In this document: piece by piece, positions 2,592-29,487 of the stretch | How positions within the stretch are numbered: the stretch's first letter is position 1 | Layout: each line of letters starts with the position of its first letter | Assembly (NCBI GenBank): GCA_902791985.1 | Contig: CADAYD010000013.1 | Span: 1-46,210 of the forward strand | Origin: an uncultured bacterium | GTDB taxonomy: Bacteria; Cyanobacteriota; Vampirovibrionia; Gastranaerophilales; Gastranaerophilaceae | DNA length: 46,210 bases | Direction: 5' to 3' | Program-made: the position numbers and the translations under genes | The notes under the pieces: generated by a model | Database searches by the model: none | What the model was told of the DNA's origin: nothing | What the model saw: only the letters and a program-made list of their open reading frames with translations

Positions 2592-3374
2592 ATGTTTTCA
2601 AAAATGATACAGAGTTTACTGAATTCTGGCGGCAAAACTGCAGCAATGCAACGTGCGGCTCAAATAAACTCTTACGTTAATAACATGTCAAGAGTTTTAA
2701 ATCCGGCACAGTCAAAGTCTAATCCTCTGGATACTATTTATCCTGCAAACGGTCAAAATGTCCAATCATTTGAAAAAGTTTTGTCGGGCACAAAACAAAC
2801 TAATTTCGGTTCGTTACTTTTGAATCCTGAAGTGTTGAAAAATTCCGCCCTTTCACCTGCTTCGCTTAATGTTAATGCTAATTTATATGATTCGGATGGA
2901 ATTGATACTTCATCTATCAATAATGATATTTTGAAGCGTGCGATTCAAGAAGTGAATGATGCTCGCAGGGATTATTCAAAGCCTGAAATAAGGACTTCTA
3001 ACAGCCAAATTTTGGACATGGTTAATACCGTCGCACGTAAACATGGTGTTGACGAAAAACTCGTACAAGCGGTAATTAAACAGGAATCAGGATTTAATCC
3101 CAAGGCTAAATCAAAAGTAGGTGCTATAGGTTTAATGCAGCTTATGCCGTCAACTGCAAAAGCGCTGGGTGTCAAAGACCCTTACAATCCTCAGCAAAAC
3201 GTTGAAGGCGGCGTTAAATATTTAAAATCCATGCTTAATAAGTATAATGGAAATGTAATTCTTGCTCTTGCGGCTTATAATGCCGGTCCTAATGCCGTTG
3301 ATAAGTATTCAGGTGTTCCGCCATATAAAGAAACTCAAAATTATGTAAAAAAGATTTTGTCTAATTACCTGTAA
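2592..3374 (+). CDS. Lytic transglycosylase (SLT-domain) protein
   Basis: Predicted to cleave the MurNAc-GlcNAc bond of peptidoglycan non-hydrolytically. The C-terminal ~115 residues are a textbook SLT domain. It includes the catalytic Glu in [10 protein letters not shown], the [16 protein letters not shown] motif, the NVEGGVKYL segment and the [12 protein letters not shown] motif. The N-terminal ~140 residues are low-complexity, Asn/Ser-rich and lack a recognisable signal peptide or lipobox. That is unusual for a wall enzyme and fits export through a flagellar-type or other specialised system. The start is ATG 2592 because GGGAGG (2576-2581) lies ten bases upstream; the frame opens at a GTG at 2574 inside that ribosome binding site. 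Its last ten bases overlap the convergent CheR-like gene. Confidence 0.9.
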
Positions 3375-4315
3375 TCAACTTCTTTAACTTTTTTCCATAT
3401 GCTTGGGTATTTGCTATCTGTTCTTATTGGTATAAACCCGTTGTCAATTAATGATTTTGAAATTATTGTAACATCGCTTTTTTGTTTATGCTCTTCTTCA
3501 CCCATGATAAATAATCCATTTTTATCAAGTGATTTGTTTATGTTTTGGAATATTTTATCAAGTATCGGTTTCGTTTGAGAATGTGGTTTTGAAAGTCTTT
3601 GTGCACCTTCGTCATTTGTAATAATGTGGTAAAAAGCATTTTTAAATGCGAAAAGTTGATTTTTTCTTTTTGTACTAAGAATTTTATTTAATTCCAAAAT
3701 GTCTCCGTTGACGAAAGTACAATTGCTATCTTTGCTTTTCAATTTGTATAGTTTTCTGTCAAATTCAACATATGCTATATCTAAAAATTTTCTGAATGCT
3801 TCTGTCAACTTATATATCATTTTATTTTTTGAATCAATATTTTTAAATAATTTGTTAAATTCTTCTTTCAGTGCTACTTGTTCCGGGCTCAAATTATCAC
3901 ATTCGTCAACTAAAAATTTGTCATTAAATGTGTTCATTTCAACAAATTGTGTATATTTTTGGGCTTTTTTATCATGTGGAATATAAAACTCAAATATCCC
4001 TGAACGTGCTCTTTTTATAGTATCTTTCCCGATATCAAACCCGAGAATTTTGACAGGGGCTTCATGCATCAGCATTTTAAGTGAATAAATATCTTCTCCT
4101 GTTGAACATGCTCCGACAACAAAACTCTTTTCCTTAACATCTCTGAACACCTCATTTATATAATTTATGGCATATTTAAGTGTCTTGTAGTCACGAAAGA
4201 AGCGGGTTTCAGTTGTTATATAATTGAATCTTCCGTTTTTTATAATTCTTTCACAGCCGCCATGCCCGCTAAATGCGGTATAATTTTGTTTATTATTTAT
4301 AGGTTGAATATTCAT
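3365..4315 (-). CDS. CheR-like SAM-dependent methyltransferase
   Basis: Resembles the catalytic half of CheR, which methylates glutamates of chemoreceptors using SAM. Visible signatures are an [12 protein letters not shown] segment matching the family's ITTNxTxFFRE, a SAM-binding [16 protein letters not shown] matching [36 protein letters not shown], and a later FKNAFYHI in place of the usual CRNVLIY. There is an insertion of roughly 80 residues between the last two. The start chosen is ATG 4315; the frame continues to a TTG at 4381, but the upstream residues add nothing family-like. The N-terminus MNIQPINN...TAFSGH matches the signature shared with other proteins here. No chemoreceptor or other che gene is in the window, so the substrate is unknown and the classical role is uncertain. 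Confidence 0.75.
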
Positions 4316-4455
4316 AGCATAATTAATGCTTAAACATAAAATATTTTGCTTAAAAGTGCCTGAAATTTTCTTTGCTAGCAAAAAAATTTTTTTTTGTGTT
4401 TTATAATGTTGTCTTTGAAGATATCGTAAAGATATATTAAATTCGTATATATTTG

Positions 4456-4484
4456 TTTACAAAACCTAAAACGGCTGATATAAT
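4456..4484 (+). promoter_or_regulatory. Sigma-70-type promoter
   Basis: TTTACA (4456-4461), a 17-base spacer, then a consensus TATAAT (4479-4484). Predicted start is near 4491, about 30 bases before the ATG at 4521, with AAAAGGGG between them. Confidence 0.7.
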
Positions 4485-4520
4485 AGAGAAAATTGGTAAA
4501 AGCATAAAAGGGGTTAATAT

Positions 4521-5234
4521 ATGAAAGTAGATGCAGTAAATAGTGTAAATTATTTTAACAGAGCAAGTTACGGACATAAAAATGCCGGAGTGTCCCCAAC
4601 ATTCATGGAAAATCCGTTAAGTACGTCGGATTTGGCAAAAGTTCCTGTGATAGTTATGCTTGCGATGAATCCGGCAACATTGAACAGTACAATTCCTATG
4701 GGACCTGAGTCTGAAGTTGCTAATAAGATTGAAGCATTAGCGCCTGCTTCTAAATCTCTTGATGCATCGACTTATGTTCTTTCTCCGATAACAGATGAAG
4801 TGGAACAGTCAGGAAAAGATTTTGTTGTTCCTGCCGGTAATCTTATGTATGTTCAGAATTTTGATTATTTCGGACATAAATATAATGTTGTTTATTCATC
4901 GACAAGCGATAGTCATTATGATGATATTAGTAATATTTATTTCTATAAAGATGGGGAAAAAGTCACTCCTGCAAAAATGTACGGATTAGTTTATCACGAA
5001 GATCCTGCGACGGGTAAGAATTTTTATGGCGCAATTATTTTAAAAGAATTTATTAAAAATAATAAACGTATTGGGGCTGTTGAATCAGAAATTGAGCTTC
5101 CATCGTATATCTCAGATTTTATAATAAAAGTTTTGAATGATGAAACTAAGTTCATAAACAATTTAACAACAATTGATTTATATAAATCTAAATCTTTAAG
5201 ATTAAAACATACAAGAACCATTAAGTATGATTAA
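4521..5234 (+). CDS. Hypothetical protein with YGHK-type N-terminal signature
   Basis: I recognise no family. It has 237 residues, no signal peptide and no clear membrane helix. The N-terminus MKVDAVNSVNYFNRASYGHKN matches, in layout, the N-termini of the CheR-like, RelA/SpoT-like and 102-residue proteins in this window. The middle (about residues 110-180) is rich in alternating aromatic and polar residues (YNVVYSS, DISNIYFYKDGEKVT, MYGLVYHED), suggesting a beta-rich fold. The start is ATG 4521 with AAAAGGGG just upstream and a strong promoter. It is transcribed alone before the 1135-residue protein gene; 90 bases separate them. Confidence 0.8.
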   Translation: MKVDAVNSVNYFNRASYGHKNAGVSPTFMENPLSTSDLAKVPVIVMLAMNPATLNSTIPMGPESEVANKIEALAPASKSLDASTYVLSPITDEVEQSGKDFVVPAGNLMYVQNFDYFGHKYNVVYSSTSDSHYDDISNIYFYKDGEKVTPAKMYGLVYHEDPATGKNFYGAIILKEFIKNNKRIGAVESEIELPSYISDFIIKVLNDETKFINNLTTIDLYKSKSLRLKHTRTIKYD

Positions 5235-5324
5235 TTTTACTTTTTAAGATTTGTAACAATTTTTTTTTATTGCGAAAAATTTTCATGTTCTAATTGTTTA
5301 AACTTATAGGACAAATTATAAGTT

Positions 5325-8300
5325 ATGGTTGATAATGTTAAAAAAAATCCAATAGTCGAACAGTCTTCGGTTGCTCCGGTGCCTACGCCATCGCCAAAAC
5401 CCGAAGAGTATAAACCTATGTTTCCTACTACCGGAAGTTCTCCTGCGCCAGCAACTGCAACTGAACCTTCTGAGGCACAAAACTTGGCTAGTGCTCGTTC
5501 TCAGGCTGCAAGAGCACAAAATCAGAAAAGAGAAGTTGAGCAGGAAAAACTTATGGCTGAAATCAACAAAATGCTTCAGGCTGATGATAAAGAAGCAACA
5601 TATGAAAATATTGTTGAATTTGCTCAATCAATGCGTGAGGCACTTTTGGAAAAACAAAAACAGGGAGAACTTACACAGGAAGAACAGGCTCAATTAGAAG
5701 CATTAAATACTTTTCTTAAACCTGAAACTCCTGAGGCTACTCCTGATGCTCCTGATGCTTTTGATGCCGCCGAAACAGAGGTAACTGATGAAGATAAAAA
5801 ATTAGAAGATGAGATTAATACCAGATTAAAAGAAAATAATCAGGAAATAACTCAGGATAATATAATTAAAATGGCTGAATCAATGCTTGAAGAATTATCG
5901 GCCATTGAATTGGAAGGAAATTTAACTCCTGAGCAGCAAAAAAGGTTGGATGCGTTAAATAAACTTTTAAATCCTGCACCTTTAGATGATGAAAATGTTA
6001 ATGATGTTGAAAACTTTACTCCTGTGCCTTCACAACCCTCTGAAATGCCTGTTCCTGAAGACAAAAATGGTGTTATAGAAAAGTTTCTGCTTGGAGATAT
6101 AAAAAAAGAAGATTTGAGTGCTTATATCCAAGAATACATTGAACAAAATATTCCGGGATATAAAGACATGTCAAAAGCAGAACAAGCCGCAAAAGCACGT
6201 TCATTACAGCAAGAGATTATAAAGTTATCAACTGACGGTAAAACAAATAATTATAACAAAATGACACCGGCAGAACTTACAAAGGCTGCTGAAATTATAA
6301 TGTTATGTCGTACTAAAAATATTTCCTTAGCAAAATTTTCCGAATTAAAGTCTGAGCAGAGAACTAAGATGCTTGGTGATTTTGAGCTTGGTGCTATAAA
6401 GTCATTAGTTGAAAAGTATACTCCCAAAGATATACCTCCGGACAAATTCAAAACGTATAGTCCGGAAAGTAAATTAAATTATTATCTTGATAATTTATTG
6501 GCTTCAAAATATCCGGAATATAGCTCTTGGTCAGAAGATGATAAACGCGCAAAAAGAAATGAACTAATTCAAAATCTGGTATCTAATAATTTAAATATAA
6601 AAAAATGGGATGGTTTACATGATGGAGAGAAAGCCGAATTTATACGAGCATTTGCTAAAGATTTAGATGTTGCAATTACTCTAAATAAGCCACTTTCAGA
6701 AGTTTTGAGTATGGATATTGGAGCTAAAAATGACTTAAGAAAACAATGTGCGCATAAAAATGGTTATAATATCGATTCAGCTGATGAAAGACTTAACAGT
6801 GCAATAGATGCTTGTCAGAAAAATGGTAAAAATATTACTTATCAAAATCTTGAAGCAGAATTAAAGAAGCTTGCTGATACTGGGGATCCAGATGCAAAAA
6901 GAGCCTTAGAAAGGTTAAAGTTGTCTCAAGAATGGGGCAAGTTTACGGCATCAACTGAATTTGATAATTCTGTTCAAAAATTTAATGATTATGTAACTAA
7001 CAATGGCTATAAAACTAACAATGACTGTATTAAGGATGCTATTGAAAAACGAAATGTTGAAATATTAACTTGGGCTGCTGCTTGGGCTCAAAGTTCTCCT
7101 GAAACTTGGGCTGAATTCAAGCAAATGATTGAAAAAGGCGGATTTACACCAGAGGAAATCCGTAATATTTACAGAGTGAGCGGTCAAATTATGACTTATA
7201 ATTTGTCATCTGCTGCTATTGATGGTAATGTTGCTCAATTTAATCATCAACAAAATATCTTACATTCAGCGGGTCGTCTTGATATTGCTGAAAATTCAAT
7301 AAGACATGCTTATCCGTATTTCCAAGATCAGGCATTTGTGGATGTATCCACCAATGCGATGAATGTTTGGGGTACACAAATTACTCCAGCGTTGACAGGA
7401 TGTTTGAATGACAGAAACATCATGACTTATGATGTGGCAAAAGAATTATCAGGTAAAATCGCTTCATCGTTTGATATTTCTGGTGAATGTCGTTCATCTT
7501 TTGCTACAAATTTAATTAAAAGTGCTAATAATACTCAAGAACAGTTGGGTTATGCTGATAATTTATCTACAATCTCTGATCCTGCCGTAACTGAGGGCTT
7601 GGCTGCTGCACTCCAATATGTTGATTCCAGCGCACAAAATCAATACAACAGTTATATTGACAGAGCAATTCAGAATAATGGTTACAGTCAGGAAGAAATT
7701 AACAATATAAACACTGCAAGAGAAACCGGACAAACTTCTTATCAGAGAGGAACAACTTCATCAGCAAACGGAAATTCACCGGCTAATTCGCCTTCTTCGG
7801 CATCTTCGCCAAGAAATCAAGCCAGTACAACTTCTTCTGCGACCCCAACTACATCTGCTGCAACTCCGGTATCTTCAACCCCTGCTAATGTTGTGAAAGT
7901 TTCGCCGCAAAATTCTAATGCGGTTACAGAAATGCGCCAAACTCTTGCACAACTTCAGTATGAAGAAAGCGTTGCCAAAAAAGAAAAAGCAATGCAAGAT
8001 TTGCAAAATATAATTGAAAAGATACAGAATGATCAAGAAGTAAGAGCACAGAAAAAAGCAGAGCTTGCTGCTAAAGAAGCAAAAACTGATGAAGAAATTG
8101 CACAGGCAATAAAAGAGACCGAGAAAAAATCGGTTAAAGAACAAGAAGATGTTCAGGCGAAAGTTGCTGTTGAAGTAGTTGAAGAACTTGACCAAGAAGA
8201 AAAACTTGAAAAGAAATTTAATATTTCTATTGATACAATTAACAGAATTCGTACGGCTGCACGCAATGGCGATTTATCAACTATTTACAATGTATTGGGC

Positions 8301-8732
8301 TCTATTAGTACTGATGCTCAAAGACATTTTGTACAGCGATTGTCACGCAAAGACACTGCTACGATTATTGGTTTTATTCGCAGCCAATCAACAAATAAAT
8401 CACTTATCAGAGAGTTATGCAGATTAAATCCGGGGTTAATAAAGGCTCTTTCTCCTGATTTGCTCATAAGCTGCGGAATACAAAAATCAGAAATTATTAA
8501 ATATGCAGATTCTAAGATGCTTGCATCTTATCTTGCCGAATTACAAAGAACAGGTAATACAAGAGAGCTTAATCAGTTCTATGAAGCACTCGGGTACGAT
8601 ACCCAAACTATTGCAAATTTTGAGAGTAAACCTATTCCTGGGAGCGATGAGTGGTTGACGGCGTATATGCCGGTTAAAGTTTCTATGCGCCATTATATTG
8701 ATAAACATGTACCTCGCAAATTTTGGGGCTAA
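5325..8732 (+). CDS. Very large hypothetical protein with internal duplication
   Basis: I recognise no family. It has 1135 residues, is acidic, and has no signal peptide or membrane helix. Residues 1-50 are Pro/Thr/Ala-rich. Two related alpha-helical units follow, about 75-132 and 158-217, each with the pattern of a Met/Leu helix, a T-x-ENI or T-x-DNI helix, a GELTQEEQ or GNLTPEQQ turn and an ALN-x-LLKP/NP ending. Residues ~230-800 look all-helical. A Ser/Thr/Pro/Asn linker (~805-860) precedes a Glu/Lys-rich coiled coil (~866-955) and a helical C-terminal domain containing RKDTATIIGFIRSQ. The layout suggests a scaffold or cytoskeletal/envelope structural protein, but that is inference. The start has only a weak AGG at 5308. 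Confidence 0.85.
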   Translation: MVDNVKKNPIVEQSSVAPVPTPSPKPEEYKPMFPTTGSSPAPATATEPSEAQNLASARSQAARAQNQKREVEQEKLMAEINKMLQADDKEATYENIVEFAQSMREALLEKQKQGELTQEEQAQLEALNTFLKPETPEATPDAPDAFDAAETEVTDEDKKLEDEINTRLKENNQEITQDNIIKMAESMLEELSAIELEGNLTPEQQKRLDALNKLLNPAPLDDENVNDVENFTPVPSQPSEMPVPEDKNGVIEKFLLGDIKKEDLSAYIQEYIEQNIPGYKDMSKAEQAAKARSLQQEIIKLSTDGKTNNYNKMTPAELTKAAEIIMLCRTKNISLAKFSELKSEQRTKMLGDFELGAIKSLVEKYTPKDIPPDKFKTYSPESKLNYYLDNLLASKYPEYSSWSEDDKRAKRNELIQNLVSNNLNIKKWDGLHDGEKAEFIRAFAKDLDVAITLNKPLSEVLSMDIGAKNDLRKQCAHKNGYNIDSADERLNSAIDACQKNGKNITYQNLEAELKKLADTGDPDAKRALERLKLSQEWGKFTASTEFDNSVQKFNDYVTNNGYKTNNDCIKDAIEKRNVEILTWAAAWAQSSPETWAEFKQMIEKGGFTPEEIRNIYRVSGQIMTYNLSSAAIDGNVAQFNHQQNILHSAGRLDIAENSIRHAYPYFQDQAFVDVSTNAMNVWGTQITPALTGCLNDRNIMTYDVAKELSGKIASSFDISGECRSSFATNLIKSANNTQEQLGYADNLSTISDPAVTEGLAAALQYVDSSAQNQYNSYIDRAIQNNGYSQEEINNINTARETGQTSYQRGTTSSANGNSPANSPSSASSPRNQASTTSSATPTTSAATPVSSTPANVVKVSPQNSNAVTEMRQTLAQLQYEESVAKKEKAMQDLQNIIEKIQNDQEVRAQKKAELAAKEAKTDEEIAQAIKETEKKSVKEQEDVQAKVAVEVVEELDQEEKLEKKFNISIDTINRIRTAARNGDLSTIYNVLGSISTDAQRHFVQRLSRKDTATIIGFIRSQSTNKSLIRELCRLNPGLIKALSPDLLISCGIQKSEIIKYADSKMLASYLAELQRTGNTRELNQFYEALGYDTQTIANFESKPIPGSDEWLTAYMPVKVSMRHYIDKHVPRKFWG

Positions 8733-8827
8733 TTCTTGATTTTTTAATTTTTTCGTGTTGTAATAGTCGTACAGGGAAGGGAATTTTAATATTTACCCCC
8801 GAGTCCACTTGAAAGAAGCCAATTTAA

Positions 8828-9694
8828 TTGACTGATACAAAAGAAATTACATTAGCGAAATATGCGGGTTTTTGTTACGGCGTAAAACGTGCGGTTGATA
8901 CCGTGAAAAAAATTAAAGCCGAAAACCCAGATAAAAATGTCTATGTCTTGGGCGAACTTATTCATAACGCTCAGGTCATTGATGAATTGGAGTCTTTTGG
9001 GGTGATTTCACTTGATAAATTGCCTGAACATGGCGAAGGAATTTGTGTTGTTCGCAGTCATGGTGAAAGCCCGCAAACATTTGAACAGATTAAAGATGCA
9101 GGGTTTGAGGTCTATGATTTAACTTGTCCTGATGTTAAAAAAGTTCAGCAAAAGGCGGTAGAACTTGTTAAAGGCGGCTATTATCTCGTAATTGTAGGGA
9201 AAGAGGAACATCCAGAAGTTAGTGCAATAAAGGCGAATGCACTTATTTATGGAGATAAAGTCTTTGTTGCTGCTACTGTAGAAGATTTGTATAATCATAC
9301 TGCGGAATTAAAAGAACATAAAAATATCGGTGTTGTGGTCCAAACAACTCAGACATTAGCGACGTTAAGCCCGATTATTGAGTATTTAATGTCAATTTCA
9401 AAGGAGTTGCGTATTATTAATACGATTTGTCCCAGTACTTCAAGACGTCAGGCTGAAGCAAAAGAACTTGCCCAAAATAATGACCTTATGATTGTAGTTG
9501 GCTCAAAAAACAGTGCAAATACAACTCATTTAGCAGATATAGCAAGAGAATACACAAAAACAATTCATATTGAGACTTCCGATGAATTATCTCAATATGA
9601 AGATTTAATTAAATGTTCATCTAAAATCGGAGTGACAGCAGGTGCATCAACTCCGCAAAATGTTATAGATAACGTAGTTAAAATGCTGATATAA
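8828..9694 (+). CDS. ispH: 4-hydroxy-3-methylbut-2-enyl diphosphate reductase (IspH/LytB)
   Basis: Last step of the MEP isoprenoid pathway: reduces HMBPP to IPP and DMAPP with a [4Fe-4S] enzyme. The three cluster cysteines are in place: Cys16 in AGFCYGVKRAV, Cys100 in DLTCPDVKKVQ and Cys201 in NTICPSTSRRQ. The catalytic Glu lies in the HPE motif near residue 130. At 288 residues it is the normal size. The start is TTG with GAAAGAAG about nine bases upstream. The rpsA gene follows 21 bases later; in many Firmicutes the two are fused into one LytB-S1 protein, so this pair is the unfused version of the same arrangement. Confidence 0.96.
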   Translation: MTDTKEITLAKYAGFCYGVKRAVDTVKKIKAENPDKNVYVLGELIHNAQVIDELESFGVISLDKLPEHGEGICVVRSHGESPQTFEQIKDAGFEVYDLTCPDVKKVQQKAVELVKGGYYLVIVGKEEHPEVSAIKANALIYGDKVFVAATVEDLYNHTAELKEHKNIGVVVQTTQTLATLSPIIEYLMSISKELRIINTICPSTSRRQAEAKELAQNNDLMIVVGSKNSANTTHLADIAREYTKTIHIETSDELSQYEDLIKCSSKIGVTAGASTPQNVIDNVVKMLI

Positions 9695-9715
9695 AAAGAA
9701 AAGGAGAAAATAAAA

Positions 9716-10807: not shown

Positions 10808-10832
10808 TATTTAAATTCTTTATTGAATAGAT

Positions 10833-10865
10833 AAGCGCCATTGTTTTAATAAAACAATGGCGCTT
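10833..10865. terminator. Bidirectional terminator between rpsA and the phosphatase gene
   Basis: AAGCGCCATTGTTTTA and its perfect complement are separated by one base, followed by CATTTTAA on the plus strand. The genes on both sides converge on it (plus-strand rpsA, minus-strand phosphatase), so it can serve both. The T tract is weak. Confidence 0.75.
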
Positions 10866-10901
10866 CATTTTAATAATTTTAAAATTATTAACGGCTCTAT
10901 T

Positions 10902-11525: not shown

Positions 11526-11542
11526 TGTCTTTCTCCTTTTAT

Positions 11543-11551
11543 ATTATAGCA
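11543..11551 (-). promoter_or_regulatory. Extended -10 promoter of the histidine phosphatase gene
   Basis: On the minus strand TGC is followed directly by consensus TATAAT (11548 to 11543). The ATG is 18 bases further on, with an AAAGGAG ribosome binding site between. Confidence 0.6.
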
Positions 11552-15229: not shown

Positions 15230-16459
15230 ATGCTAATAAGTAGATTACCCCAAACAAATTTTAATGCGCATAAAAAGCAGCAAGCGCAGGAAGCTGTACC
15301 TCAGTTGCATTTACGACCGCAATTGCAAGCTGATACGGTTTCTTTTGGGGCGAAAATTCCAAAGTATGATAAGACTTTTTTTATGGATGCAATTTCCAGA
15401 GGTTATGATAGTGCAGAGTCATCATTAATTTCTGCGGCAAAAGAATTTCATAGGGCTTTAAAAAAGGTTGTTAATAAACTTAAAGCGTACGGATTTGAAT
15501 ATGACGAAGCATACAACACGAAATGTCCTTTAAAGAAAAAGGATTCCGTTTTAGATAAATATGAAAGACAGGGTTGTGCTCAGGATATGATTAGAGGTAC
15601 AATATATTGGCAAGACCAGCAGGATGTTTTAGCCTTTAAAAAATTTCTGGATGCAATGAAAGAAGAGGGTTGGTCTATCTCAAGAGTTAGGAAAATAGAT
15701 CCTAAAACTGGAAATTTCATTAAAGGTATTAGTTTCCCAGACTTAGAAATTCGCCAAGAAGGTTTGACTACTGAGTCCCTTGCTCCTTTAGGTGAATTTA
15801 TACAGCGTGCTGAAATATCAAAACCTAGAGAATCAACTTACGCTGATTGGCAAGTCCGATTTGTCAGCCCGAAGGATAAGGACCATGAATGTGAAGTAAT
15901 TTTCCTGTATGGACCGCATTATAAGGATGCAAAAGAATTAGAACATAAATTTGTTTATGAACCTATTAGAAAACTGAAAAAGCTTCATGTTGACAGAAAT
16001 ATTGAACATCATCAAAAGGGCTCCCCAGGGTATGTGATAGCGTCTAATTTCCATGAAATCCAGAAGCGACTTATTCAATTCATTTCTCAGCCGTTATTTA
16101 CAAATGCTTTCAATGCGGACTTAAAAATAAAAGATGCCGAAAAGTTGCCTGTAGAAATAAGTAAAAGTTATGCCGCACTGATTATGAATTATGCCAAAGG
16201 CATTTCAAAAGTGCTGCCTTCGTATTATTCGCAAGTAACAAAAGAGTTACTAAAAGAAGAACAGATTGTTTCTTCAATTAAGGCTTCCCCTTCTTATCAA
16301 ATAAGACCGGATAAAACTATTTCAAAAAGAGAAATTATAGAAACAAGAAAAGAAGTTAAGGACAGGCTTGCACACTGCAAAGAACGTGATACTACAAAAA
16401 TTGCAGAAGTAATTAACGATTTAAAACAAACTATAGATAGATTTGTAATTAAAGATTAG
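15230..16459 (+). CDS. RelA/SpoT-like nucleotidyltransferase-fold protein with SFGAK N-terminal signature
   Basis: It has 409 residues. Residues 35-42 read DTVSFGAK, the FGAK signature shared with other proteins in this window. From about residue 75 the order of motifs resembles RelA/SpoT-fold synthetases: a Lys-rich stretch KKKDSVLDKY (102-111), then DMIRGTIYW (119-127, compared with the family's D-x-x-RG-x-I strand). Later a beta strand QVRFVS leads to ECEVIFLY (220-227) in the place of the catalytic ExQ strand, then HYKDAKELEHKFVYEPIRKL (compared with the K-x-x-x-H-x-x-YE-x-x-R helix). If correct it would transfer pyrophosphate or nucleotidyl groups to an unknown acceptor. Full RelA HD, TGS and ACT domains are absent. 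The ribosome binding site is AGGA, eight bases upstream. The homology is from pattern reading and needs a profile search. Confidence 0.6.
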   Translation: MLISRLPQTNFNAHKKQQAQEAVPQLHLRPQLQADTVSFGAKIPKYDKTFFMDAISRGYDSAESSLISAAKEFHRALKKVVNKLKAYGFEYDEAYNTKCPLKKKDSVLDKYERQGCAQDMIRGTIYWQDQQDVLAFKKFLDAMKEEGWSISRVRKIDPKTGNFIKGISFPDLEIRQEGLTTESLAPLGEFIQRAEISKPRESTYADWQVRFVSPKDKDHECEVIFLYGPHYKDAKELEHKFVYEPIRKLKKLHVDRNIEHHQKGSPGYVIASNFHEIQKRLIQFISQPLFTNAFNADLKIKDAEKLPVEISKSYAALIMNYAKGISKVLPSYYSQVTKELLKEEQIVSSIKASPSYQIRPDKTISKREIIETRKEVKDRLAHCKERDTTKIAEVINDLKQTIDRFVIKD

Positions 16460-18850: not shown

Positions 18851-18860
18851 TGATTGCATT

Positions 18861-21124: not shown

Positions 21125-21133
21125 AGTAATAAA

Positions 21134-21142
21134 ATTATAGCA
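21134..21142 (-). promoter_or_regulatory. Extended -10 promoter of the periplasmic protein gene
   Basis: On the minus strand TGC is followed by consensus TATAAT (21139 to 21134). The ATG is at 21124, so the transcript start is expected within about three bases of it. Confidence 0.55.
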
Positions 21143-21157
21143 TAATTATCAATAATG

Positions 21158-21166
21158 TGGTATAAT
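21158..21166 (+). promoter_or_regulatory. Extended -10 promoter giving a leaderless WecG-family mRNA
   Basis: TGG is followed by consensus TATAAT (21161-21166). The ATG at 21173 begins six bases after the hexamer, where the transcript itself should start. No Shine-Dalgarno is possible in this space. Confidence 0.6.
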
Positions 21167-21172
21167 AACATT

Positions 21173-21889: not shown

Positions 21890-21891
21890 TT

Positions 21892-22716: not shown

Positions 22717-22738
22717 TTATTTTGGGAGTATGATGCGA

Positions 22739-24778
22739 ATGAATAATCCGAAATTTAATTTAAAAAAAGCATTTACGATGATGGAAATAGGCTTGGGTTT
22801 GTTAATTGTAAGTATCCTTGTAATGTTGTGTATACCTATAATAGGCAATCAAGTAAAGAAAACTGATGAATATGCTTATTATTTAGCCTTTAAAACTGTG
22901 GAAAAAATGGCATCACAAATTATTGTTTTTGGAGACCCTGAAACAGAGGTAGATGAGGATTTGGGTTATATAAACAATAATTCTATTATTGCTAAAATTT
23001 TGTCTTATTTCTATCCAAAGGCTTATGCAGAAGAAAGAACTTCTGTAATAGTTTCATACCCCAAATATGAATACGATTATGTGAGATTGTGTCTGGGAAA
23101 TACAAACGTTTCAAAAGGTTCAGGTCAAACATATTCTCAAGCTGAAATCGATTCAATAAGTAGTGAGCCATTATGTGTTACATATAAGGCTAACTATAAT
23201 GCATATATTAAGAAAAGATTTATGTGTCCTTTATCAATGAGAACATTAACAGATCAGGATGTCATTAGTCATTTGCAAACTACTTACATGACTTCGAATG
23301 ATTATTGTCATTGGGTTGCAGAACATTGTTCAGGGGATGCAAATTCATATACAGTAGATGATTTATCATATTGTGTTGTTACTGTTAAGAATGCAGAAGA
23401 AGATTTTCCTGAAGTGATTGAAACCTTGACTGATTCGGCTCCAACTTTCGACCCAATATCATGTTCAAATTATGGATTTTTCGGAGCAAGTTTATCCGGT
23501 GCTACAGGCATAGATAGGTGCTCCTGTACTAGTACGGCAGGTGCTTTAAATAATACAGGTTATTGTCATGATGCTACTGAAGGAAAATATCCATATTATA
23601 TTCCCGCAACAGCAACTACCGAAGAAACGTCAGTAAGCTGTGATTTTGATTCATTTGATGAATCTTCCGGTACTTGTTGCCATGCTAATTCAAGATACAG
23701 CAAAGCACTGGGAAAGTGCATTTGTATGGACGGCTATACACCTAATGACGATAACACTGCTTGTGTTGCATCAAATGAAAGCTGCCCAGCAGGTTCTCAT
23801 ATGGAGGAAAATCATTGTACTCAAAATTTACCGATTGTGAGCGCAAAGCGTTTTTGTCAGCTTGTCCATTATAATTGGAATACATCAAAAAATAACTGTG
23901 ATGTTTACACGACAAGTGAAGGTGTTGATTACTACTCCGATTTATACAATGCTATAACTGCAAATGGCACTCCATATTTATCTGCAAAGGCGGTTGTGGG
24001 TGCGTTTAATGATGTTGAGCCTAACATAATTTTTGCAAACGGACTAAGAATGTGGATTCTTGATGATAAATCGGCGTCTATTCCTGGATTATCATTTAAT
24101 CCGGCGGACTTTGAACCAACTGTTAATACCTGTAAAGTTGTCGGTAATTCAGAAGATTCTTGTTCTTCAAGTATAGATTTTTATTGTCCTCAAGATTCAA
24201 AATGTTTTACGATTAATCAAGGAAATGGAACCAGTAAGCTTTCAGATGCAAGGAACTGTTGTTCTACAACTGATTTTAAAGATATTATGAGTAACTATGC
24301 TGCCAGTGATTATTTAAGAGTACCAATAACATATGCCATAAGTGGTTTTACGGTATTTGTCGACATAAACGGAACTAAAGATAATGATGAATTGGGCGGT
24401 GGCGGAACACTTTGGAAAGATGTTTTTCCGTTTTATATAAGTACGAATGGCCGTGTGTATCCGGGGTATCCTTTAAATGCTTCAAAGGCTAATGTAAATG
24501 AAGAAGGCAGTAAAGACAGCTCTTCATTGTATCAGGGAGGAAACAGTTCTGCATTGAGTTCTGATGTATATTACTTTGATATGGTAAATGGACAGCGTAA
24601 AAAAATTATTGCTTATCCTTCTGTTCCATATGCAAGAGCGTTATGTTTATCAAAAAATATAAGTGAATATACTCCATATTGTTTAAATTTAGGCACAAAA
24701 TTCAGAACTTCCGGGGAAAATCCTTGTTTAACGCACAGATGCTTTATTAAACTCAAAAATAAGATTAAATATTTGTAG
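22739..24778 (+). CDS. Large Cys-rich type IV prepilin-like protein
   Basis: A short basic leader ends KKA, followed by FTMMEIGLGLLIVSILVMLCIPIIG, the class of hydrophobic N-terminus cut and methylated by prepilin peptidase. Phe12 would be the first mature residue and Glu16 the conserved Glu5. The -1 residue is Ala instead of Gly, which is tolerated in some prepilins. The remaining ~640 residues are far larger than a normal pilin. They contain many cysteines, including EGF-like patterns (C-x-C-x-x-G-Y, about residue 325), so disulfide-linked surface modules are likely. The start is ATG 22739 (ten bases from GGGAG); 22730 and 22733 are possible alternatives. A cognate peptidase gene lies at 31594. 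Confidence 0.82.
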   Translation: MNNPKFNLKKAFTMMEIGLGLLIVSILVMLCIPIIGNQVKKTDEYAYYLAFKTVEKMASQIIVFGDPETEVDEDLGYINNNSIIAKILSYFYPKAYAEERTSVIVSYPKYEYDYVRLCLGNTNVSKGSGQTYSQAEIDSISSEPLCVTYKANYNAYIKKRFMCPLSMRTLTDQDVISHLQTTYMTSNDYCHWVAEHCSGDANSYTVDDLSYCVVTVKNAEEDFPEVIETLTDSAPTFDPISCSNYGFFGASLSGATGIDRCSCTSTAGALNNTGYCHDATEGKYPYYIPATATTEETSVSCDFDSFDESSGTCCHANSRYSKALGKCICMDGYTPNDDNTACVASNESCPAGSHMEENHCTQNLPIVSAKRFCQLVHYNWNTSKNNCDVYTTSEGVDYYSDLYNAITANGTPYLSAKAVVGAFNDVEPNIIFANGLRMWILDDKSASIPGLSFNPADFEPTVNTCKVVGNSEDSCSSSIDFYCPQDSKCFTINQGNGTSKLSDARNCCSTTDFKDIMSNYAASDYLRVPITYAISGFTVFVDINGTKDNDELGGGGTLWKDVFPFYISTNGRVYPGYPLNASKANVNEEGSKDSSSLYQGGNSSALSSDVYYFDMVNGQRKKIIAYPSVPYARALCLSKNISEYTPYCLNLGTKFRTSGENPCLTHRCFIKLKNKIKYL

Positions 24779-24785
24779 GCTTTTT

Positions 24786-25241
24786 ATGATAACAGATAAA
24801 TTGGAGAACATTCAAAATTATACTGATTTACCAAAGGTTGTACTTGATTTTATAAAATCACTCAACATAGGTATACAATTAGGCAAGCAAATTTTGAGTG
24901 AAGATGTTTATGTGAATATTGAAGAATACAGTACAAAATTAGTATCAGATGCAAAGTTTGAAACACATAAAGAATATATTGATATACAGATTCTTCTTAA
25001 GGGTTCGGAAGAAATATATTATGCTGATAATAAAGAATTAAATGTAGATGTACCATATGATACCAGTCGAGACATCGCTTTTTATTCTGACAGAGTAGCA
25101 GAGTATCCAAAATTTAGGCTTGATGGTACTAATTTTATAATTTTGTATCCGCCTGAGGCTCATGCTCCACAAGTCAGTATAGATGAAAAACCTCAGAAAG
25201 TTAAAAAGGTCGTTGTAAAAATAAAAAAAGATTATAAATAA
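24786..25241 (+). CDS. YhcH/YjgK/YiaL family protein
   Basis: Beta-sandwich (cupin-like) family; characterised members include sialic-acid-linked anomerases and the beta subunit of evolved beta-galactosidase. Key patterns: HKEYIDIQILLKGSEEIYYAD in the middle and FIILYPPEAHAPQVS near the end, whose His and Glu residues form the metal site in this family, ending KKVVVKI. It has 151 residues, the normal length. It starts seven bases after the prepilin stop, but the two have no obvious functional link. No sialic-acid catabolism genes surround it, so the sugar it handles is unknown. Confidence 0.88.
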   Translation: MITDKLENIQNYTDLPKVVLDFIKSLNIGIQLGKQILSEDVYVNIEEYSTKLVSDAKFETHKEYIDIQILLKGSEEIYYADNKELNVDVPYDTSRDIAFYSDRVAEYPKFRLDGTNFIILYPPEAHAPQVSIDEKPQKVKKVVVKIKKDYK

Positions 25242-25253
25242 TTATATTGTTTC

Positions 25254-26138
25254 TTATTTTTTGCGCTTTTCAGGATAAATATCCCATTTTATTTCATCGT
25301 TTTTTCTAAACCATGTCAGCTGGCGTTTTGCATAATTACGAGTATTTTTCTTGAGAAGTTCAATACTTTCGTCAAGTGACAATTCTCCATCTATAAACTT
25401 TAAAATTTCTCTATAACCAATTGTATTTACAAGATTGTAGATTCTTCCGTATTTATTTAAGAGTTTTTTTGTTTCTTCGATTAAACCGTTATTAAGCATT
25501 TCATCAACTCGATTATTTATCCTGCTATAGAGCACATCCCTTTCAAAATTCTTGCCTATCCATTCAACATCATATTCGCTCTCTTGAACTCCTCTAAGCT
25601 GATTTAGTTTTTTCCCTGAATGTGAAGTTAATTCTATTGCCCTAATAATTTTCTTCTTATCATTCGGTTCGATATTTACTGCACCTGCAGGATCATTATT
25701 CTTTAAAATATTATAAAGCTCATGGGCTGGTAGTTTATCTAAATTCTCCCGAAGTTGATAATCAGCTTCTATCCCAGGAAGTACAAAGCCTTTTAATAAT
25801 ATATCAATATATAAACCGGTTCCTCCGACAATTATTGGAAGTTTTTCTTTTAAGGTTATTTGCTTAATTATTTTAGAAGCTTCTTCTTTATATAAACCGG
25901 CAGAATAGTCAAAGGTTGGCTCAACAATGTCAATCATATGGTGCGGAACTCCATCCATTTCATCAATGGTTGGTTTAGCTGTCCCGATGTTAAAGTCTTT
26001 GTATACTAATCTTGAATCTGCTGAAATTATTTCTCCATTCAGCTTCTTTGCCAATTCGATTGAATATTTAGTCTTGCCGCTTGCTGTGGCCCCGACAATT
26101 GCAATTACTTTAATTTTTTGTGACATAGTTTCTTTCAT
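25254..26138 (-). CDS. miaA: tRNA dimethylallyltransferase (MiaA)
   Basis: Adds a dimethylallyl group to N6 of A37 in tRNAs reading UNN codons, using DMAPP (supplied by the MEP pathway; ispH is in this window). Walker A VGATASGKTKYSIELAKKL, then ISADSRLVYKDFNIGTAKPT (catalytic Asp), GVPHHMIDIVEP, IIVGGTGLYIDILLKG, and C-terminal TRNYAKRQLTWFRKN. It has 294 residues. Its first 29 bases overlap the end of the upstream membrane-protein gene, implying coupling. An internal ATG at 26126 is an equally good start. It converges with the YhcH-family gene. Confidence 0.95.
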   Translation of the reverse strand: MKETMSQKIKVIAIVGATASGKTKYSIELAKKLNGEIISADSRLVYKDFNIGTAKPTIDEMDGVPHHMIDIVEPTFDYSAGLYKEEASKIIKQITLKEKLPIIVGGTGLYIDILLKGFVLPGIEADYQLRENLDKLPAHELYNILKNNDPAGAVNIEPNDKKKIIRAIELTSHSGKKLNQLRGVQESEYDVEWIGKNFERDVLYSRINNRVDEMLNNGLIEETKKLLNKYGRIYNLVNTIGYREILKFIDGELSLDESIELLKKNTRNYAKRQLTWFRKNDEIKWDIYPEKRKK

Positions 26139-26847
26139 AATCTCTGAATATAATCAAAATGAAATATAATAGGTAATAGTAAGTAAGAATTATGAGTAAA
26201 AAGTATGTGAAAGGATTATCTTCAGCCATAAAGATAATTATTCGGAGTAAAATTCCAATTAACACCATAAATATGTATAGCGGGAATGTATTTTTGAATG
26301 ATAAAATAGTCATTTTAACCGAATTTATCATAGCCTTGAAAGCGTTTGTATAATTATATACAATTTCAGGTATCCAATAGATAAAAAAGTACCAAAAAAT
26401 AAGAACAATAGCGATGCTTATAATTGAAACTTGAGATATATCGAGTTTATATGGTAACTTGAAAAGAGATAACAACAGTCCGTATTTAAGCAATTTAAAG
26501 CAGAAGCATACAGCAACCATGATTAAAAATGATACAAAGAACTTCCCTACACCTTTGAATAAGCACAAAAATAATTTTGTTAGAGCTGTGCTCCTGTCTG
26601 TATCATACAAAAAAGTTTTTTTTGAAAATTGCAGTGTTTTTTTTGTCATATAAAACCAGCCTGCAAAACAACCGCTAATCCAAATCCACAATGTTAAATA
26701 AAATGCAATGTTGTTTGCCGGTAGTGATAAAATATTTTGAAAAGTCTGGATAAACCATTGTATTGATATAAAAAAAATAACCATTGGAGTTGCTAAAATT
26801 ATACAATCATTAGTAATTTTAAAATTTTCCCGAAGAAATTTCAGCAC
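26110..26847 (-). CDS. Integral membrane protein of unknown function
   Basis: It has 245 residues and about six hydrophobic helices (near residues 20-40, 48-66, 92-118, 140-165, 195-210 and 220-238). Charged loops carry Lys/Arg on the presumed cytosolic side. I recognise no transporter or enzyme motif; the pattern is that of small, poorly characterised membrane-protein families. The start is GTG, with an AGGAG inside the end of the preceding gene, four bases after that gene's stop. It overlaps miaA, so the three minus-strand genes from 28003 to 25254 are likely one operon. Confidence 0.8.
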   Translation of the reverse strand: MLKFLRENFKITNDCIILATPMVIFFISIQWFIQTFQNILSLPANNIAFYLTLWIWISGCFAGWFYMTKKTLQFSKKTFLYDTDRSTALTKLFLCLFKGVGKFFVSFLIMVAVCFCFKLLKYGLLLSLFKLPYKLDISQVSIISIAIVLIFWYFFIYWIPEIVYNYTNAFKAMINSVKMTILSFKNTFPLYIFMVLIGILLRIIIFMAEDNPFTYFLLIILTYYYLLYFILIIFRDYERNYVTKN

Positions 26848-26851
26848 CTTA

Positions 26852-28003
26852 TTAAACTCCTACTGTTTGCTTAGAATTTGTCAATTCTTGTTTTTGTTTC
26901 ATCTTTCTGCGCCGCATTAAGTCAACAAAAGCCTCAATTCTTGTTATATAACCCGCCCTACCTGTTTGTTCATCCATAATTAAAGCAAGTATAGGAATAT
27001 CACAATTTTCTCTCATTGCAGGAAAAATGTTCTGTGACATAATTTCAGGCATACAAGTAAACGGACTAAGGTGAATTATTCCGTCGGCACCTTTTTCCTG
27101 AGCATAAACTACATCTGAAACGCACTCTAAAGAATCCCCGCCAATATCTCGAACCAAATATGGTTTTGCGAGTCTAAAAGCACGTTGTAAGTGAGTTTCA
27201 CCCTTTCTGAAAATTTTTGGAATGATCGCATCTTTTAGAAAGCTTGTCAAAGTTAAACTTCGCCTTACTTGAACACCCATCCTGCCTAATTCACGTTCAA
27301 TATTTTGATTTGAAAATTCATCATTAACAATATAAATTTCTCCGGTTATATCAACATAAAGGACATCTTTTTTAGGGTCAATAGCAACTTTTTTCATTTC
27401 CTCATCAACAAGTTTCTTTGCTTTTTTCAAGCCTAAAAATGTATCATTTTCATCAATTATGCGGAGGGCTGCTTTATAATGTTTTTCAGCATCTCCAAAG
27501 TTTAATTCTCTTGCCCTGTAATATGATAATTTTGTTTCAAGTGAATCAAGCATGAATGTCTTAATTATTGCTATAAGAATTGCTCTTGTAAAAAGTAAAA
27601 TATTATTTGTACCGCTGACTTTATGCAAGAAATCATACATACCTTTGATACCGTCATAGAGTTGCATTTCAATATATTTTGCATCGTAGCCAAGATCTTT
27701 TAAGGCATTTGCTATGCATTTCCCATATTCTCCAAGTCTGCAGCACCCAGGAGATGTTATCATCGCTACATAATCTGCTCCACCATTAATTGCTTCAATA
27801 AAATTACCCAAAATTAATTTATAAGGTATACAAATTGCTTCCGGAGAATGTTTTGTTCCAAGTGAAAGAGTTTTTTTGCTTGTATATGGTTCTATATATG
27901 GCTCGCAGCCAATAATTCTAAGTGCTGCTGACCAAGCATAACAAACCGTACCCATATGAGGAAATGAAACTTTTTTCTTAACTTTATTTATATTATTATT
28001 CAT
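26852..28003 (-). CDS. 2-hydroxyacyl-CoA dehydratase/DUF2229-like iron-sulfur protein
   Basis: Resembles the HgdB/BadF-associated family (COG3581/DUF2229) of radical acyl-CoA dehydratase-like proteins. It opens with SFPHMGTVCYAW; early cysteines are at 21, 33, 58, 87 and 88 (the last two in MITSPGCCRLGEYGK). Late in the protein are GADGIIHLSPFTCMPEIM and IPILALIMDEQTGRAGYITRIEAFVD, which are typical of the family's C-terminal half. It has 383 residues. Related systems pair this protein with a second subunit and an ATP-dependent activator (HgdC/BadF type); neither is in the window. Substrate unknown. The ribosome binding site is AAGGA. Confidence 0.82.
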   Translation of the reverse strand: MNNNINKVKKKVSFPHMGTVCYAWSAALRIIGCEPYIEPYTSKKTLSLGTKHSPEAICIPYKLILGNFIEAINGGADYVAMITSPGCCRLGEYGKCIANALKDLGYDAKYIEMQLYDGIKGMYDFLHKVSGTNNILLFTRAILIAIIKTFMLDSLETKLSYYRARELNFGDAEKHYKAALRIIDENDTFLGLKKAKKLVDEEMKKVAIDPKKDVLYVDITGEIYIVNDEFSNQNIERELGRMGVQVRRSLTLTSFLKDAIIPKIFRKGETHLQRAFRLAKPYLVRDIGGDSLECVSDVVYAQEKGADGIIHLSPFTCMPEIMSQNIFPAMRENCDIPILALIMDEQTGRAGYITRIEAFVDLMRRRKMKQKQELTNSKQTVGV

Positions 28004-28053
28004 TATTATTCCTTAAAACACATATTCCGAAACGACCTTTAATACCGCTAAAA

Positions 28054-28686
28054 TTATATAATTCCTTGTTTAGCAAGGTCTTTTTTAATTTTATCAAGGC
28101 CGGATTGAATAATTCTTGATATTCTGGATTGAGAAATATCAAATTCATCGGCAATTTCTCTAAGCTTTTTATCTTTAAAAAATTTACATTCTATAAATTC
28201 TTTTTCTCGGGCAGGTAATTTTTGCATTGCTTCAAGTATACCTTTTTTTAATTCCGTAAAAACAATGCTTTCTTCAGGATTCCTGTCATTTGATTTTATT
28301 TGTGTTGGAACTTCCGCATCTTGCAGTTCATCAATAGAAAGTATGTTTTTATAAACTTCTGCACGCAGTTCAACCGGATCAGGTTCAATTATTCCATCAT
28401 TTTCGTTAATTTCAGCCTCATCCTGTTTTTTGTTTTTTAGAGTATACCACTTATATCGTCTTCTTACTTCATTACGGATTGCCCATTTTATTGCAGTTGA
28501 TAAATAAGTATTGTTATACTTCTCAGGAGGATTATTTTTAAATAATATATAAAGAGCATGAGTCCCAATATTTACAAGCTCAGGCAATTCAATTAAATGC
28601 GAAGTAGAAAATTTTTGATATTCAACTTTTGCAATTATTTCAATTAAATCTTTATATTCTCTGAGTCTTCTGTCTTCAATTGCCAT
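28054..28686 (-). CDS. Alternative sigma-70 family factor
   Basis: It has 210 residues. Region 2: LPELVNIGTHALYILFKN, then YLSTAIKWAIRNEVRRRY, the -10-recognition helix. Region 4: LPAREKEFIECKFFKDKKLREIADEFDISQSRISRIIQSGLDKI, a classic helix-turn-helix. Region 1 is missing and region 3 reduced to an acidic linker with Glu/Asp/Pro (about residues 90-150). This fits a group 3 factor (general stress, flagellar or sporulation-like type), but which regulon it serves cannot be read. It stands 51 bases upstream of the dehydratase-like gene on the same strand and may be its operon leader. Confidence 0.85.
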   Translation of the reverse strand: MAIEDRRLREYKDLIEIIAKVEYQKFSTSHLIELPELVNIGTHALYILFKNNPPEKYNNTYLSTAIKWAIRNEVRRRYKWYTLKNKKQDEAEINENDGIIEPDPVELRAEVYKNILSIDELQDAEVPTQIKSNDRNPEESIVFTELKKGILEAMQKLPAREKEFIECKFFKDKKLREIADEFDISQSRISRIIQSGLDKIKKDLAKQGII

Positions 28687-28912
28687 TTTAAAAAATAACC
28701 CGTAATATTACTCTATCATCATACCAAAAAAATATTATAATGCCAGTTAATGTAATTTTACTTAACATTAAGTCTCTTGGTAATAAAATTATATTTGTAT
28801 TTTGAATATAAACTATTGTAACAAATTTTATGTGTATGCGCAAAAACTTAAAAAATGATGTTTTATTATATATGTGTAGGAAAATTTTTAATGAAAGTGT
28901 ATTAGGTGCAAC

Positions 28913-29062
28913 ATGTACAGCAAAGAATTTATGAAATTTTTGTTTGGCTATCAAAAAGAAAATTTTAATCCCAATGAACCAAAATCCTATAAAATAAGAT
29001 TCAAAAATAAAGGAGGAGGAAAACCTGCTGAAGTTTTATTAGTTGCGCAAGACAACAAATAA
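28913..29062 (+). CDS. Small basic protein, 49 residues
   Basis: A short frame reading MYSKEFMKFLFGYQKEN, then a Pro/Lys stretch, then a strand-like end with GGGKPAEVLLVAQDNK. Support: an AGGTG ribosome binding site six bases before the ATG, codon use like its neighbours, and a terminator hairpin shortly after the stop. I recognise no family. The longer minus-strand frame across the same bases (28688-28954) has no ribosome binding site and unusual composition and is rejected. Confidence 0.6.
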   Translation: MYSKEFMKFLFGYQKENFNPNEPKSYKIRFKNKGGGKPAEVLLVAQDNK

Positions 29063-29085
29063 TTATCATAAAATTTAAGTACTTT

Positions 29086-29119
29086 AAAGTAATAATCATA
29101 AATTGATTGTTACTTTTTT
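29086..29119 (+). terminator. Terminator after the 49-residue protein gene
   Basis: AAAGTAA and TTACTTT arms (with an inner ATCA/TGAT pair) run into TTTTTT at 29114-29119. It is AU-rich, so moderate strength. Confidence 0.55.
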
Positions 29120-29178
29120 AATAGTTAAATAGCAAAAAATATTTTTATATGTTTTACTAGCTGTATATGGAGGTAAAT

Positions 29179-29487
29179 ATGCATATTTATTCTGTGAATA
29201 ATACAGCTTTCGGGGCAAAAATTAAACTTGATAAGAATATAGCAAATGATTTATTATATTCAGGTACGATTTCAAGTATTGGTTCCTCTGCAATTGGAAG
29301 TGGTATTGCATCGTCTGCACCTGTATTAGATCCTGTTCATCACATCCATTCTGCCGCAAAAGTTGTTGATGGAGCCTTTGCATTAACCGGACTTGGATTT
29401 GGTGGCGTTGCATCTTCTTGTTTTAAGCTTAGTCTTGAATTTTTAAAAAGTGCTCTTTCAAAAATGAAGGCTAAAATCCCTTCGTAA
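29179..29487 (+). CDS. Small hypothetical protein with FGAK N-terminal signature
   Basis: It has 102 residues: MHIYSVNNTAFGAKIKLDKN at the N-terminus, then a Ser/Gly/Ala/Ile-rich segment (about residues 28-50: SGTISSIGSSAIGSGIASS), a His-rich turn (PVHHIHSAA), a hydrophobic Gly/Ala stretch (GAFALTGLGFGGVASS) and a Lys-rich amphipathic end. The composition of the middle resembles membrane-active or pore-forming small proteins. The start is ATG 29179 because GGAGG (29169-29173) is placed correctly for it; an upstream ATG at 29167 overlaps that GGAGG. I recognise no family. Confidence 0.75.
   Translation: MHIYSVNNTAFGAKIKLDKNIANDLLYSGTISSIGSSAIGSGIASSAPVLDPVHHIHSAAKVVDGAFALTGLGFGGVASSCFKLSLEFLKSALSKMKAKIPS

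Follow-up and report, generated by a model that had tools for sequence, protein, structure and literature searches.

Effectors of Salmonella pathogenicity island 2 (SPI-2) share an N-terminal motif, WEK(I/M)xxFF, and their type III route is known experimentally. Here we describe a comparable arrangement, one short N-terminal motif of another sequence on unrelated passengers, in a 46,210-nt stretch of DNA (the window) from an uncultured bacterium of the order Gastranaerophilales. The window is contig C13 of a 1.91-Mb genome, G000; G, C, L and f numbers are our handles for genomes, contigs, loci and families. Among described systems, the early flagellar export signal of the Salmonella FlgD type has two N-terminal elements joined by a linker and hydrophobic residues at the extreme start, with 19 to 24 residues reported between the elements of FlgD (PMC8983047). 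Alarmone synthetases linked to Sec, type VII (T7SS) or type III secretion systems (T3SS) have also been described, including SaEAS and the XopAD- and LXG-linked forms (PMC12691689). Partial flagella gene sets were reported by Soo et al. (2014) and are mentioned again in a termite paper (PMC5877343). No description of the leader studied here, or of a T3SS reading of the partial flagellar set, was found in the open-access literature. With a probability of roughly 0.55, we read the window element as a modular N-terminal sorting, most likely export, leader of the Gastranaerophilales.

The initial annotation saw a common tag on four window proteins, and the N-termini it quoted are present in the sequence. 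An internal Met at 4315 of the open reading frame (ORF) 3365-4381 (minus strand) opens the tag of a CheR-like protein, ORF 15230-16459 (plus) carries DTVSFGAK as residues 35 to 42, an internal Met at 29179 of ORF 29167-29487 (plus) gives MHIYSVNNTAFGAK, and ORF 4521-5234 (plus) begins MKVDAVNSVNYFNRASYGHKN. The tag holds for the first three. The fourth, at 4521..4583 (plus) of a 237-aa protein of unassigned family, is a possible variant judged on sequence alone (MKVDAVNSVNYFNRASYGHKN), in which Y replaces F and H replaces G/A; this protein has no Pfam match and no homologue among the compared sequences. A basic residue had been taken as a defining element and is not one: the corrected consensus is a head, M-x-[IVL]..., followed by an acid-poor, Asn/Gln-rich linker of variable length and a tail, [VIP]-[SNTA]-F-x-[GA], of which DTVSF[GST][GA] is a frequent form and F-x-[GA] the defining part. 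The 102-aa protein at 29179-29487, without a Pfam match, bears a short-linker tag, MHIYSVNNTAFGAKIKL (29179..29229, plus).

Conservation of the leader is clearest in the alarmone-synthetase-like protein, where residues 1 to 42 (15230..15355, plus) comprise the head MLIxxL, an acid-poor linker and the tail DTVSFGAK. A single-sequence search found this protein in 20 of 40 genomes including its own, all of one genus, with no match in the 15 genomes of other families. When 19 sequences are aligned (24 to 69% identity; a broken copy in G001 left out), M1, D35, V37 and F39 are invariant, while residues 8 to 33 mostly align poorly. A search of named genomes kept 80 of 98 matching loci, 77 of them with a readable ORF; most records bear the name Candidatus Gastranaerophilales or Melainabacteria or denote uncultured bacteria of rumen or gut, the exceptions being one Muribaculaceae (its start equal to that of L035, from an order genome) and one Heliobacteriaceae. 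The strict tail [DN]-x-[VI]-[SC]-F lies within the first 110 residues of 68 of these 77 orthologues, and the remaining nine have tail variants by eye, such as SVHFTS and TPSFGQ. The head M-x(1-2)-[IVLMF] is found in all 77, under a loose expression in which any Met ahead of the tail is accepted. In an AlphaFold2 model from the 19 sequences, residues 1 to 46 have a predicted local distance difference test score (pLDDT) below 50 and the first helix starts at residue 49, which predicts a disordered leader.

The passenger behind this leader (15356..16459, plus) is, by its model, a RelA/SpoT-type (p)ppGpp-synthetase-like fold with long C-terminal helices and a putative synthetase activity. The assignment is made because VIA-align, rather than Foldseek, supports it: the exported alarmone synthetase SaEAS (8vx3_B) aligns with Z 11.9 (3.8 Å, 176 aligned residues), RelP with Z 11.3, and 5f2v and CapRel with Z 9.5, and synthetase-type entries fill rows one to eleven, ahead of the first unrelated row at Z 8.2. 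Foldseek alone gives no row at E<=0.001, its best (3.6e-3) also being 8vx3. The window protein has no Pfam match over cut-off and none to RelA_SpoT; a tagged f7 protein (L091:3646-4752) scores 30.6 to RelA_SpoT against a cut-off of 27. That the nearest fold is that of an exported synthetase counts in favour of an export reading. Exported synthetases such as SaEAS share the fold and, if the leader is an export signal, the presence of an extra N-terminal export module, whereas the N-terminal pieces named in the available text of PMC12691689 differ from the tag leader.

The CheR-like family serves as a second, independent test. The CheR-like protein (3368-4315) has a leader of 18 residues (4262..4315, minus), assigned by alignment and by the tail motif in its homologues, and a CheR-type S-adenosylmethionine (SAM) methyltransferase catalytic domain (3365..4261, minus) that matches PF01739 with 40.1 bits against a cut-off of 27 and B. 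subtilis CheR (5ftw) with a VIA Z of 18.8. The likeness to chemotaxis methyltransferases lies in this catalytic domain. Their usual N-terminal helical domain appears replaced by the leader: it is absent among Pfam matches up to E=0.1, and the predicted structure starts at about residue 15, residues 1 to 11 having a pLDDT below 50. Matches occur in 37 of 97 family genomes. The fetched loci gave 31 ORF matches, reduced to 29 by dropping two fragments without an N-terminus. An expression fixed after the sequences had been inspected finds the tail near the start, within 80 residues, in 28 of the 29, and in 5 of 82 internal windows. F15 is invariant in the 28-sequence alignment, and the one homologue without a tag, L275, resembles a normal chemotaxis CheR.

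The leader also precedes other proteins. In the 98 order genomes, a gene-blind DNA pattern for DT[VI]SF[SGT][GA] occurs 165 times, alarmone-family copies included, and its reversed control 11 times; the corresponding counts are 67 vs 47 in 50 f8 genomes and 20 vs 11 in 46 other genomes of the class. Because the codons of the matched tails vary, selection appears to act on the protein. Thirty loci were fetched, 25 in the order and five outside; in 18 of the 25 the pattern lies in an N-terminal leader that opens with an M-x-[IVL]-like head (seven were not counted), with D at residue 32 to 40 in 16 of the 18, and three of the 18 belong to the alarmone family, while none of the five loci outside the order is N-terminal. 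The cores of the 15 non-alarmone leaders plus L239, whose frame begins two codons ahead of the motif, form eight groups without between-group BLAST similarity at 1e-3; seven is the safer number because a comparison with the leaders left on links L232 weakly to L240 (28% over 174 aa). When these 16 proteins are searched with the alarmone-family profile, four of them (L232, L233, L226 and L231) align to model positions 1 to 86, which cover the leader plus the start of what follows (E 9e-9 to 1e-5), and L233 has an additional match at 141-160; with the leaders cut off, none of the 16 matches. The leader is thus modular, and the earlier proposal that proteins of unrelated fold share it, enzymes among them, is borne out for the alarmone-synthetase-like and CheR-like methyltransferase passengers.

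An alpha-amylase, 5'-nucleotidases and a kinase-like protein are less certain candidates for tagged passengers. Pfam searches of candidates outside the window, picked by eye and with no enrichment of passenger types claimed, put CheR (L047) and alpha-amylase (L004:10221) over cut-offs among a first 20 (19 from G000, one from G006), none among a second 10 (a protein kinase reaching 25.3 bits, cut-off 31.7), and two 5'-nucleotidases and one RelA_SpoT among a third 10. The amylase tail is TNFKG, and those of the 5'-nucleotidases are SSFGN (L052:7811) and ISFRG at residues 4 to 8 (L083); not all of these meet the strict tag and none was a match of the detector described below. The kinds of passenger carry little weight as an argument, since the amylase and the 5'-nucleotidases are no more than candidate members.

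Whether the tag exceeds chance was examined by several routes, the own-genome sample being the window plus 43 further stretches of G000. Of 733 N-terminal windows in this sample, 7 contain one of the strings FGAK, FSGH or YGHK, vs 4 of 3860 internal ones, four of the seven being the proteins that suggested the tag. In the same sample the head M-x-[IVLM]-x-x-[IVLM]-[NQGS] and the tail F[GKTSR][AGS] co-occur with an odds ratio (OR) of 4.8 (p=1.2e-4); the co-occurrence is not significant in four small samples of relatives. A detector that requires M-x(1-2)-[IVLMF], then a leader that is acid-poor and not hydrophobic, then [VIPTNAS]-x-F-[GSTKRCNQH]-[AGS], with rules drawn up after members had been seen, matches 17 of 746 N-termini vs 8 of 1742 pseudo-N-termini in the own genome (p=9e-5), the 17 including three window proteins and three (L002, L044, L049) that resemble chance by eye. 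Elsewhere it gives 4/114 vs 2/312 in G006 and G023 (p=0.046), 6/343 vs 2/750 in f7 (p=0.014), 3/101 vs 0/251 in f9 (p=0.02), 4/217 vs 2/450 in G040, 1/89 vs 2/181 in G029, 1/102 vs 3/223 in f14, 2/139 vs 2/346 in f8 and 0/70 vs 4/183 in f3. The clearest cases in the own genome are four adjacent genes (L048:10249-12235) whose starts read MQ[IV]Q[RA]V[QN]NN...F[GK][AG]. This cluster, with near-identical heads and different bodies, and a second cluster of short tagged genes (G021:C71:3647-9321) contain matches of the profile A1, described next, and suggest that genes were duplicated locally while their passenger parts were exchanged.

A1, a 17-position profile built from ten aligned short tags, has the window tag at 29179 as its best row, itself a training row. 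At E<=0.02, a cut-off just under the first non-order match (0.0205), it finds 54 matches, 10 of them training rows, in 194 genomes of the class, all within the 98 genomes of the order; the 96 others yield none vs about two expected by chance. At E<=1, 83 of the 98 and 19 of the 96 are matched. The detector, A1 and the DNA pattern all show an excess, which refutes the objection that the motif is not enriched, and by A1 and the DNA pattern the tag is convincingly found in one bacterial order alone, in keeping with the lineage-specific system that the initial annotation had proposed.

The opposite view, that there is no signal and that the motif reflects chance, the AT-rich composition of start regions or ordinary first strands, draws on the modest enrichment of the tail alone and on the strand that F15 starts in the CheR-like protein. 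A tail matrix trained on the tails of the four window proteins plus the alarmone family matches 10/242 N-termini vs 5/825 internal windows in the held-out f7 (p=3e-4), a result in favour of the tag and the only significant one among the other groups; in the remainder of G000 it fails to generalise (11/515 vs 23/1710, p=0.14). A matrix seeded from the own genome has an OR of 3.3 there, which is circular as the seeds come from the same set, and in hold-outs 3.5 in the same genus (p=0.03), 2.0 in f7 (p=0.056), 3.3 in G029 (p=0.15), 0.9 in G040 and 0 to 1 in f3, f9, f14 and f8. Unsupervised motif discovery on N-termini (gapped 3-mer enrichment and random-start expectation-maximization) did not recover the tag and returned hydrophobic starts and Cys-rich and Gly-rich motifs instead. 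Against this stand conservation across 77 and 29 distant homologues within an otherwise poorly alignable leader, the 165:11 excess of the DNA pattern, the disorder predicted for 15230 and the matching of other families by the alarmone profile, which is lost once the leaders are cut off, so that the no-signal explanation is largely refuted and very improbable.

An acid-poor composition rich in Asn, Gln, Ser, Thr and Pro is typical of type III signals, and the leaders share it. Asp plus Glu make up 2.3% of alarmone-family leaders vs 15.1% of the rest and 4.6% vs 13.8% in the CheR-like family, and the leaders are rich in N, Q, S, T and P. Judged by linker composition rather than with a signal-peptide predictor, there is no Sec-type hydrophobic core: L and V do not rise, and I differs from the rest of the protein by -0.9 and +0.1 log2. 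Long-leader tags, with F about 40 residues in (median 41), can be likened to the FlgD-type signal, and a spacing of at least 19-24 residues is kept in the alarmone family by all but one of 76 leaders (75 with F at residue 26 or later) and by most of the 28 CheR-like leaders (F at 8 to 65, median 31.5). The likeness to the signal described in PMC8983047 has limits: the FlgD-type gate motif FxxxPhi differs from the tail [VIP]-[SNTA]-F-x-[GA], FlgD-type passengers are rod and hook subunits whereas those of the tag are free enzymes, and short-linker tags break the FlgD spacing. The tail was rejected as a flagellar FxxxPhi motif because position +4 in the alarmone family is mostly P/N/T/K; what follows F is a small residue at +2 and often a basic one at +3.

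If the leader is an export signal, the passengers would leave the cytoplasm, and the Met-led hydrophobic head and the tail would be read together by a receptor, held apart by the acid-poor Asn/Gln/Ser/Thr/Pro-rich linker; the same leader precedes at least eight passenger families without detectable mutual similarity. The most likely machine to read it would be a divergent flagellar-type type III export apparatus, here named T3SS-2, that is kept where flagellin is gone. Among 117 genomes of the order, all have FHIPEP proteins, and flagellin (PF00669) was found in 43 and not in G000. In the own genome T3SS-2 would comprise FliE, FliF, FliH, FlhA2, FlhB and FliP. Its locus has the order fliE-fliF-(a fliG-like gene, no clear Pfam match)-fliH-flhA2; FHIPEP, Bac_export_2 and FliP score over cut-offs, so that the FlhA, FlhB and FliP families of a type III export gate are represented, and flhB and fliP lie away from flhA2, fliP among ORFs that resemble fliO/Q/R (L246), as suggested by neighbouring ORFs alone. 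The one FlhB of G000, a family whose C-domain is the docking site in the FlgD model, contains NPTH.

The FHIPEP protein of G000, FlhA2, falls below cut-off both for flagellar FlhA (TIGR01398, 686.6 bits; cut-off 772.1) and for injectisome SctV (TIGR01399, 572.2; cut-off 692.25). A full-length match exists in 96 of the 98 genomes of the order including its own (74-100% identity), the other 95 being 74-98% identical to the own protein. Relatives in further families of the class have 58-66% or 43-48% identity, and the rows taken for canonical FlhA 39-41%. From scores and identities rather than a tree, FlhA2 seems to be a lineage of its own. At the G124 locus there are also rod genes, a gene for an SLT transglycosylase, and fliI, with a tagged 89-aa gene directly downstream of fliI (L294), and in G023 the gene facing the end of flhA2 starts MINKIGLQTNNKAFGAK. 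In G000, possibly tagged genes, one of them a 5'-nucleotidase, lie within about 4 kb either side of the sole flhB found (L052:6312-14887, C6).

Several findings speak against this export reading or against its link to T3SS-2. Results vary between the small samples: the detector reaches no significance in G040, f6, f14 or f8 and matches none of 70 N-termini in f3. The CheR-like model predicts a strand from residue 15, the tail F15, and for this reason the CheR-like tail may be part of the fold; the suggestion that the tag is no more than an opening strand of each separate fold is thus not refuted for this family, but it is refuted for the 15230 protein, predicted to be disordered over residues 1 to 46. 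The A1 short tags have F at residue 11 to 15, breaking the 19-24-residue spacing given in PMC8983047, and position +4 after F in the alarmone family holds, in a partial list from 76 sequences, P13 N9 T9 I7 K7 L6 A5. The likely T3SS-2 substrates are mostly tagless (FliE2 7 of 24 tagged, FlgB2 0 of 3, SLT 0 of 8, some of the eight not being T3SS-2 SLTs), and segments resembling FxxxPhi are present in FliE2, in FlgB2 and in the SLTs encoded at T3SS-2 loci. Tags do not cluster at flhA2, where 331 ORFs of 20 loci gave seven detector matches, one convincing by eye. FlhA2 relatives occur in families of the class without a convincing tag, the f9 detector result (p=0.02) notwithstanding. G068 has FlhA2 fragments alone, and G116, with a weaker match only and no full one, has two weak A1 matches (0.028 and 0.13); G116 is a flagellated genome of the family. 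Because of the points against the T3SS-2 link, we credit T3SS-2 with carrying the tagged passengers about half as strongly as we credit the sorting or export leader itself.

A different exporter or a processing protease might instead read the leader, with F-x-[GA] plus K/R/H as a recognition or cleavage site and T3SS-2 unrelated. The small residue at F+2 and the frequent basic residue at +3 would suit such a site, and the mostly tailless structural substrates, the scatter of tagged genes away from flhA2 and the wider distribution of FlhA2 relatives in the class all favour it. The alternative machines tested are not universal in the order, however: VirB4 of type IV secretion occurs in none of the 117 genomes, and the contractile sheath in 19 with none in G000, so that both were rejected as universal carriers. 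We regard this explanation as unlikely, if worth keeping in view. The order probably also has export of the type IV pilus or type II-like kind in the genomes concerned, since prepilin-like starts (GFTLAEVLITLGIIG and similar), often neighbours, were seen in the own genome and relatives (L085:7030-8358, L088:13021-17928, L094:8778-10243).

A 490-aa protein of G000 (L004:13563-15032, C3) lacks the FlhA membrane part and matches the FlhA cytoplasmic domain alone (FHIPEP positions 316-655, 171 bits; 27% identity to FlhA2 over 364 aa), and a second such FlhA-C-domain paralogue lies in G029 (L073:4264-5742). The paralogue itself was seen in these two genomes; it may be widespread, since many flagellin-free genomes show two FHIPEP matches, and is possibly a soluble docking platform. 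The leader might then bind a cytoplasmic or membrane scaffold and concentrate enzymes without any export, a role for which a FlhA-C domain without a membrane part could be the platform and which agrees with CheR-like and alarmone-synthetase-like passengers that use the cytoplasmic substrates SAM and nucleoside triphosphates. The acid-poor, N/Q/S/T/P-rich leader and the candidate 5'-nucleotidase and amylase passengers fit export better, and we consider docking improbable. Returning to export through T3SS-2, our fullest proposal is a tentative one: that the order runs a near-universal, non-flagellar, flagellum-derived T3SS that exports lineage-specific effectors, an alarmone synthetase and CheR-derived methyltransferases among them, by a bipartite signal, perhaps recruited by the FlhA-C paralogue.

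Other window genes include possible parts of T3SS-2. An SLT lytic transglycosylase (2592..3374, plus; PF01464, 118 bits) has homologues among the rod genes of T3SS-2 loci in other genomes (L293:14719, L294:14923, L090:1487). A putative FliJ-like gene (37365..37829, plus; PF02050, E=0.005, a weak match below cut-off) adjoins a putative FliK-like gene (37846..38715, plus; PF02120, E=7e-5, likewise weak and below cut-off) and an FlgE/F/G-type rod or hook gene (38719..39558, plus; TIGR03506, 105 bits, cut-off 70.25), the last standing in a genome without detected flagellin. A fifth tag candidate named by the initial annotation, at 34691 (MILLFGEKASKSHK), was rejected, as it has neither head nor linker and its single homologue among the compared sequences (L122) starts otherwise; the 113-aa protein there (34350-34691) has a Gly/Cys-rich tail, and the homologue (L122:17927-18304) is distant (E 2e-7). 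A subtilase (44960-45922) has MLKFLNFNSATFLNTP without F-x-[GA] and was not counted. A 1135-aa protein with a Pro/Ser-rich start (5325-8732) has no Pfam match and no homologue among the compared sequences.

A conserved modular leader would allow candidate secreted proteins to be listed from their sequences alone for an abundant, mostly uncultured gut order related to the Cyanobacteria. If the T3SS-2 link is true, the leader would also explain why flagellin-free members keep the conserved export gate FlhA2.

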